A stretch of DNA of 32,556 nt, from contig JAKAKS010000040.1 in NCBI GenBank assembly GCA_021813405.1, forward strand, positions 1 through 32,556, in the 5' to 3' direction. The notes under the pieces were generated by a model. The model did not search any database and was not told where the DNA came from. It saw nothing but the letters and a program-made list of their open reading frames with translations. The translations under genes were made by a program, and so were the position numbers. Positions 20,225-32,556 of this stretch are shown in pieces. The stretch is from Nitrospirota bacterium. Lineage in GTDB: Bacteria > Nitrospirota > Thermodesulfovibrionia > Thermodesulfovibrionales > JdFR-88. Position 1 is the stretch's first letter, and every line of letters starts with the position of its first letter.

Positions 20225-20238
20225 AAAAGACGTCTTTT
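20225..20238. other. 14-nt perfect palindrome at the tmRNA 3' end
   Basis: AAAAGACGTCTTTT is self-complementary and overlaps the last base of the tmRNA CCA end. It may affect 3' processing or be coincidental. Confidence 0.35.
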
Positions 20239-20589
20239 GGTGGAGGCGGCGGGAATTGAACCCGCGTCCGAAAGCACTGTACCCAAACCTCTACATGCTT
20301 AGGCCGCTTTTTAAATCTCGGCCCGCTTAGCGCGAGCGGCCGCGCTCACTGCAGGCCCAGTCTCCTCTTTGGTTTTAGTCCCCCGGGTGAAGACTCCCCT
20401 TGGGCTTAGCCCGCTAGCTGTCGCTTCCCCGGACCGCAGGCCCGCCCATGGAAAGCGTGCTGCTTTTAGTTAAGCAGCGAGTGCCAGTTCGTTATTGGCG
20501 TTTGTGTTTTCCCTGCCTTTTTACGTGGCGGCAGAGACCCACGGCATGCCATCAGGGCCTGGTAACCCCCGTCGAGACCTTTCGCCCCC
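20238..20589 (-). ncRNA. ssrA: Transfer-messenger RNA (tmRNA)
   Basis: tmRNA rescues stalled ribosomes and tags the nascent peptide for proteolysis. On the minus strand the 5' end GGGGGCG (20589-20583) pairs with CGCCTCC before the encoded ACCA (20238). This includes a G3-U pair, the alanine identity element. The T arm reads CGGGTTCAATTCCCG. The 352-nt length and the internal pseudoknot-rich GC segments fit a one-piece tmRNA. The tag reading frame lies at 20517-20470, ends in a TAA, and most likely encodes GRENTNANNELALAA. The first tag codon (GGC at 20517-20515) is inferred from the GUAAAAA before it. Helix 5 (GCTGCT/AGCAGC) surrounds the stop. smpB lies just upstream. Confidence 0.95.
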
Positions 20590-30912: not shown

Positions 30913-31130
30913 TGTTCTCACAGGAGGCGTGACTCAGGCGCATCCAGAAGTGACTTTCAGTTACGTCCAGAAGACCTCATCCGGCAGTATAATAAAAATT
31001 GTGCACAGTTCGGCCATAACTCGGGAGGGATTACGAATCAACAACGGTGCGGATTTCCAAAGGAAAGCCGTGAAGTGTCCCCAGTTTTATTGTAGCCACG
31101 TTTTTTATTTTGGAAATAATCAAGGAAGGG
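30913..31130. other. Non-coding boundary region
   Basis: I see no gene. A plus-strand open frame (30929-31192) resembles nothing and runs into the oppositely oriented RT-like gene. Composition shifts from typical chromosomal sequence to AT-rich across this stretch. A TATAAT at 30988-30993 has no -35 partner. It probably contains the left boundary of an acquired segment, but no integration repeat was identified. Confidence 0.35.
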
Positions 31131-32429
31131 TCATGTGCTTTGGTTCGAGGCCGCGATTAATTCAAGAAAGGCAGCTTGCAAACTTGGTCTGATTGTATAT
31201 AGATCGCGATGTTTCAATCTTCTTGTTGGCTGACCTGCCTTGTCTCTCGGATGGGCCGTTAATGATTGCAATCTCAACTGATGTAATAGATTAAAGGCAA
31301 GACAGGTTTTTGGTAAGTTCTCCTGCATTGTAGGATTTTGAAGCATGGAGCCATATTTACCGTAAGTTCTATCCGGCAAAATTCTTTTAAATAAGCATTC
31401 AAATAATAAATCACAGAAGCTGTCTAATGCTATTAAACAAGCATTTATATTTGATTCGTAATCTTTTTTTATCGTGAAGGCAATCATTTCGCCATTTTTA
31501 TGCTTATCGCCTAACACTCTCGCCCAATCAAATGAAGGAAGTTGTATACCGATCACTTGACAAATTACTTTTCCAATTAAACTTTCAATTTTGCCAATGT
31601 GTCGAATTTTTCCCGCGCTAAAAAATAATAAGCGGGCCGCTTCATGAGCATCCACCGCCGATCCTATATCAAGGCCATCCTCAATAATTTTTAGTGCTGC
31701 TATACGGCTTACGTCACTACTTCTGGATTTAATGGCCTCGTGCAAGAATGCTTGATAGCTGGCTTTGCCGTACTGGTTTATTTCTAAGTACTTAAGAGAA
31801 TTCTTTGTTATCCACCAATCAATTTCTTCAATTAATAAATCATGCATTTCAGCATAGGTGATATTGTTATTTTTTAGAACCCACGCAATTAATGCAGCTT
31901 TTAAAGTGCACTGCGTAGCAACAACATCACCAGTATTTTTAAAGAGCCTCTTGTAGCAAAACCCTAAACATAAACTCTTATAGGGTTCATTCATAATATC
32001 TAGTGTTGCAAAGAGTACATCGGCTTGCACAGCATGAAATATATCTTCATTGACGATAAAAGAAAGCAGTTCCTCTGAGGCTCTTTTGGGCAGCTTACTA
32101 TATCTGCCAAAATAGGAACAAATATTTGTTGACAAATGAGGATATCTTTTCAGGATTTCTATCAGCTTACGATTTAATTGACTGGCCGGTGTAGTTCTAG
32201 ATAGCAGATATTTAAATTTTGTTAAAGATGTGCTCTCAAGATTTCCGCGCCTGCATAATTCCGAAATTTTAGAACGCACACGGGGCTGATCGGCTGCTGG
32301 ATCAAATGGCTCCTCATTCGGCAGACTTATTGATTTGATTTCCTTGCGAGGATCAAAGACTTCTCTTAAATTGATTTTTGAGCTTTGTGGAAATAATCCA
32401 ATCTCTTTAGCTGCAAGATCGAGAGAAAC
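31131..32429 (-). pseudogene. C-terminal part of a putative antiviral-type reverse transcriptase, interrupted by IS66
   Basis: An AT-rich frame unlike its neighbours. Reading backward from the stop it stays open to 32430 with no usable start: the only candidate is a GTG at 32279 without a ribosome site, and no ATG occurs before the break. The first visible residues include LAAKEIGLFPQSSKI, which resembles the segment after the YxDD box of reverse transcriptases (GLxLNxxKT, motif D). The following ~380 residues are alpha-helical, HEAT-like (LIEILKRYPHLSTNICSYFGRYSKLP and similar), as in the C-terminal halves of AbiA/UG-class antiviral RTs. The finger and palm domains with the catalytic Asp pair are missing and would lie on the far side of the IS. 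The RT assignment is inference. Confidence 0.5.
32422..32429. repeat. Predicted 8-bp IS66 target duplication (one copy visible)
   Basis: AGAGAAAC directly precedes the IS terminus. IS66-family insertions duplicate 8 bp, so the second copy should follow the far end of the element, outside this window. Confidence 0.4.
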
Positions 32430-32556
32430 GTAAGCGTTTAATTAACCGCATCTACCACTGAAACAGCCTGCCGTGCCATGCTATGCCTGAATAAAAAAAA
32501 GGAGGCACTGCATGGAAAAATCATCGAGCATTGAACGGCGTAAATACTGGACAGGG
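32430..32556 (+). mobile_element. IS66-family insertion sequence (left end, continues past window)
   Basis: The element starts GTAAGCGTTTAATTAACCGC at 32430, matching the GTAAGCG-type terminal repeat typical of IS66. About 80 nt further the accessory gene tnpA begins. The RT-like reading frame is continuous up to 32430 and hits an in-frame stop (32444-32442) only inside the IS end, so the boundary is supported from both sides. tnpB, the transposase tnpC and the other end are outside the window. Confidence 0.72.
32512..32556 (+). CDS. tnpA: IS66 accessory protein TnpA (N-terminal fragment)
   Basis: Only 15 residues are visible: MEKSSSIERRKYWTG. This matches the usual beginning of IS66 Orf1/TnpA proteins, where a short Ser/Thr-rich start is followed by RRxYWxxHI. 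A GGAGG ribosome site (32501-32505) lies 6 nt before the ATG at 32512. The gene is cut by the window edge. TnpA is an accessory protein needed for IS66 transposition. Confidence 0.7.
   Translation, partial: MEKSSSIERRKYWTG

Follow-up and report, generated by a model that had tools for sequence, protein, structure and literature searches.

The window, the 32,556-nucleotide stretch of Nitrospirota DNA analysed here, carries towards its right end a UG19 reverse transcriptase (RT) gene of which only the C-terminal part is present. The best explanation, to which we assign a probability of roughly 0.9, is that this feature is half of a horizontally acquired UG19 defence RT gene that was split by an IS66-type mobile element, and that the intact gene encodes an AbiA-like enzyme of three domains.

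The gene fragment in the window

The window covers contig C14 in full, in a genome assembled in 56 pieces, and its right edge falls inside an insertion because the contig ends there. A minus-strand frame at 31131–32435 is open over 434 codons with no stop. Its first two residues derive from the insertion, and therefore the gene part spans 31131–32429 (minus strand; 432 codons and the stop). The GC content of the fragment is 37.9% compared with about 55%, and with 56.5% in the adjoining proA gene, in line with the earlier note, which was made from the sequence alone and had remarked on a composition unlike that of the neighbouring housekeeping genes. Elsewhere, the window contains a tmRNA gene (20238–20589, minus strand; Rfam RF00023, E 4.8e-72) and, at 336–461, a member of a dispersed repeat family of about 50–150 bp that also occurs at C53:2077–2143 and on many other contigs. 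One query from a same-genus genome matched this repeat at more than 50 places in the source genome with 73–96% identity, and the repeat is present repeatedly in the same-genus genome as well.

Pfam and NCBIfam did not recognise the fragment protein. The PADLOC profile RT_UG19 matched it with an E value of 5.2e-49 over 427 residues, covering profile positions 254–560 of 562, and among the PADLOC profiles the next-best RT group reached only 2e-4. The suspected remnant of a defence-type RT is thus borne out far beyond chance. Its description as the helical C-terminal half of a large protein also holds, the AlphaFold2 model of the fragment being helical with a mean pLDDT of 90.7. The fragment shares 56% identity with the corresponding part of an intact relative. 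The segment at 32289–32429 (minus strand; VSLDLAAKEIGLFPQSSKI...) is motif-D-like and adopts a low-confidence fold in the model of the isolated fragment. It includes IGLFPQSSKI, the stretch from which the earlier note took its RT reading, and alignment of the relatives shows that this is a real, conserved element of the UG19 family (GLFPQSxK) directly following the palm. Since the fragment belongs to UG19, a group that has been numbered in print and is represented by a model in PADLOC, its class is already known, and the proposal of an undescribed class is ruled out.

The palm half and the fit of the two halves

A profile search of the source genome yielded two RVT_1 matches. One lies on contig C53 (766–1593, minus strand), in a 275-codon frame whose last codons are insertion-derived; the palm that had been postulated beyond the insertion is therefore present. 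Searched against the RT groups, this half matched RT_UG19 with an E value of 4.6e-108 over profile positions 2–256, the next best being UG21 at 4e-43, and its catalytic YVDD motif is intact (RYVDD; KYLRYVDDIKIF). Together the palm (2–256) and the window fragment (254–560) tile the 562 positions of the profile. The genome holds a single UG19 palm and a single C-terminal part, with no further match. The other RVT_1 gene (C4:10358–10834, in locus L009, C4:7000–14000) has three direct repeats of about 195–220 bp and 83–86% identity approximately 1.3–2 kb to its left.

The octamer GTTTCTCT (gene strand) forms a target-site duplication, with one copy at window 32422–32429 and an exactly matching one at C53:791–798, directly adjoining the insertion end. 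When it is counted once, the halves join in frame, and the joined protein is 60.9% identical to an intact relative (L074/L016, 697–718 aa, from the same-family genome G004) with no gap at the joint. The GC contents of the two halves are nearly equal, 37.6 and 37.9%. The assembly itself does not bridge C14 and C53. From the shared octamer and the in-frame fit, the halves read as one UG19 RT gene, split by an IS66-type mobile element with the duplication of 8 bp.

The insertion

The boundary of the insertion is at 32429/32430. Its window-side end (32430–32556, plus strand) has GTAAGCG as its terminus and contains a ribosome-binding site together with the opening 15 codons of an ORF (MEKSSSIERRKYWTG), which we take to resemble IS66 tnpA. 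This end repeats elsewhere in the genome; 118 bp are identical at C44:62779–62896 and a copy with 85% identity lies at C50:37528–37595, all copies starting with GTAAGCG. The C53-side end carries an IS66 tnpB gene (TnpB_IS66, 1.4e-27) and a small ORF upstream, and has no second copy in the source genome. Relatives carry partial matches to it, which stop near C53 position 790.

Target-site duplications of IS66 elements are usually eight base pairs long. Terminal inverted repeats were not found at the two ends, which differ (GTAAGCGTTTAATT on the window side and GTGTCCTTCCGGC on the C53 side), and the genes at the two ends converge, both pointing inward. Therefore, the insert, the middle of which is unassembled, is not accounted for by one plain IS66 copy and is probably a composite or two neighbouring elements. 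The insertion sequence foreseen beyond the frame thus stands as an insertion with an IS66 tnpB at its C53 end, but not as a simple copy of one element.

Relatives and conservation

A contig scan with the window fragment as the single query protein found no relatives. These were retrieved with a query alignment built from three closer full-length relatives, an initial alignment having been too diverse for pattern searches. The set comprised 54 loci drawn from many phyla along with two viral contigs, and intact UG19 relatives occur in Nitrospirota as well as in many other phyla. In the plasmid and phage collections only generic RT matches were obtained, the best among the matches listed reaching 61% of the query and none 80%. 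In 48 aligned rows W304, D338, G362, P375, H385, R388 and H395 are invariant, and no other position beyond residue 20 of the window fragment is. The signature H-x2-R-x6-H, present in all 47 full-length relatives, reads HQLRLQSLTAH in the window (31251–31283, minus strand). No test of a UG19 protein was found among the papers searched.

Predicted fold

AlphaFold2 modelled the full-length intact relative with a pLDDT of 90.1 and a pTM of 0.90 as a palm that is followed by a solenoid and, at the C-terminus, by a unit of four helices. Among solved structures, group II intron RTs are closest to the palm. In the fragment model the alpha-solenoid (HEAT/alphaRep-like) corresponds to 31551–32288 (minus strand); model residues 40–281 align to alphaRep/HEAT proteins with VIA-align Z scores of 12–13, values that are only suggestive for helical repeats. 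The remaining four helices (residues 304–328, 330–352, 375–389 and 409–432) form a predicted HEPN-like domain at 31140–31526 (minus strand). Helix 330–352 holds the invariant D338 as well as D342, R388 closes the third helix and H395 is located in the next loop, and the full-length model places its R and H likewise. HEPN domains carry their R-x4-6-H site at the same place (PMC3710099). When the isolated C-terminal model was compared with the PDB, only generic alpha-solenoids were returned, AbiA being absent among the matches listed.

Structural alignment of the full-length model with AbiA (8oz7) spans residues 2–697, with 500 aligned, a Z score of 19.8 and an RMSD of 5.9, and is the sole whole-length alignment among the solved structures listed. 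DRT6, DRT4, AbiK, Abi-P2 and UG15 align over 405 to 448 residues of palm and solenoid, stopping at about residue 515. The predicted layout is thus AbiA-like, with an RT palm, an alpha-solenoid and a HEPN-like four-helix domain; this three-domain enzyme is derived from the structural models and the relatives, whereas the existence of both halves, their fit in frame, the duplication and the family assignment are matters of sequence. The earlier note had anticipated an AbiA/UG architecture of a palm followed by HEAT-like helices, which these alignments support, but had missed the C-terminal HEPN-like domain.

Gene neighbourhoods and the question of a template

Restriction-modification genes were present in 12 of 56 loci, a raw count from comparison with a few reference proteins, and Pfam assigned N6_Mtase to 7, Methylase_S to 6 and Fic to 3 of 74 adjacent genes. 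The gene of the source genome is not placed in such an operon. At L017:2937–12988 a UG19 gene is embedded in a type I operon (HsdM, HsdS, RT, Fic, HsdR) and at L018:1043–8609 one follows a type III pair in the order Mod, Res, RT, the gene names in both loci having been given by eye and partly by Pfam.

The class 2 systems examined to date depend on a noncoding RNA in cis, a template encoded near the enzyme gene (PMC13174585), and UG19 might likewise be a class 2-like enzyme. We regard this as unlikely. In three loci (L031, L032 and L053) the RT gene overlaps or abuts both neighbours, with gaps of −8/−7, −11/−7 and −4/+2, which therefore leaves no space there for a cis noncoding RNA; Rfam gave no RNA match near the palm half; and the C-terminal layout of UG19 is that of class 1 enzymes. 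With no room for such an RNA in these three loci, untemplated, class 1-like DNA synthesis would be the best inference, by analogy, for UG19.

Origin, disruption and fate of the gene

UG19 is absent from the same-genus genome G001, whose DNA homology to the window is lost around position 30964, close to where proA ends. An empty site was not found in G001, where proA and the C53 flank are on different contigs with different neighbours. The lack of UG19 in G001 and the foreign base composition of the fragment count towards horizontal acquisition, which forms part of the best explanation. Both halves are free of stops and frameshifts, and over 118 bp the window-side end of the insertion shows no difference from another copy; because of this the break looks recent, as had been suspected. 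Decay of UG19 genes has occurred repeatedly in the phylum, as copies elsewhere contain one in-frame TGA (L023) or nine stops (L026). An Aquabacterium UG19 gene (L080:7986–8639) stops right after HGIPQG, near a contig end, and may be another case of cutting by a mobile element.

The halves lie on separate contigs of a fragmented assembly, and could in principle derive from separate UG19 genes or strains that were brought together by binning and never formed one gene here. This is highly improbable given the exact 8-bp duplication, the in-frame fit, the equal GC contents and the fact that the genome contains neither a second UG19 palm nor a second C-terminal part. It is also very unlikely that the C-terminal fragment is now a functional stand-alone solenoid-HEPN protein, for example in RNA binding, expressed from its own start or from an insertion promoter. 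The 434-codon frame without a stop and a possible GTG start at 32279 are compatible with such a protein, but a recent disruption also predicts an open frame, and the fetched relatives are almost all full length, in a search by palm motifs that would miss free-standing C-terminal proteins. A split UG19 gene remains the preferred reading. As the insertion lies between palm and solenoid, the source genome most likely has a dead system, and the gene is presumably inactive there, so that the loss of an anti-phage gene by insertion is documented for this genome.

Comparison with known systems

By analogy with AbiA and class 1 RTs, phage infection would lead the intact UG19 enzyme to synthesize untemplated, probably protein-primed DNA. 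The models suggest that the palm would make the DNA, the alpha-solenoid would hold the product, and the HEPN-like domain would bring about dimerisation and may also bind RNA or cut it. UG19 gains a testable layout from this analysis, consisting of a predicted HEPN domain with an invariant R-x6-H, placement in restriction operons and, in some loci, no room for a cis RNA. The HEPN-like C-terminus is the point of wider use, and may already be known. A further proposal, which we consider doubtful, is that UG19 represents a second, sequence-distant branch of AbiA-type RT-solenoid-HEPN enzymes, often built into restriction operons of type I or III, and that its strictly conserved HEPN site is an active RNase controlled by the DNA product of the RT.

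The source-genome copy is covered over the full-length RT_UG19 profile by its two halves and differs from UG19 in being broken by the insertion. The insertion shares the IS66-type tnpB and the 8-bp duplication with IS66-family elements, but its two ends are not inverted repeats. The class 1 trait of a C-terminal alpha-solenoid is present in the predicted fold, which resembles DRT4/UG15, DRT6, AbiK and Abi-P2 in palm and solenoid, whereas no HEPN-like part aligned in these enzymes. Lactococcus AbiA (8oz7) shares the succession of palm, helical solenoid and C-terminal HEPN, and its RNSNPVSH has the same six-residue R-x6-H spacing, with RNSN in place of the mostly RLES or RYES of UG19; the UG19 profile did not retrieve the AbiA chain at E 1. 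The HEPN domain of AbiA is required for dimerisation and polymerisation, no RNase activity was detected for it, and its motif is dispensable for defence (PMC11077055).
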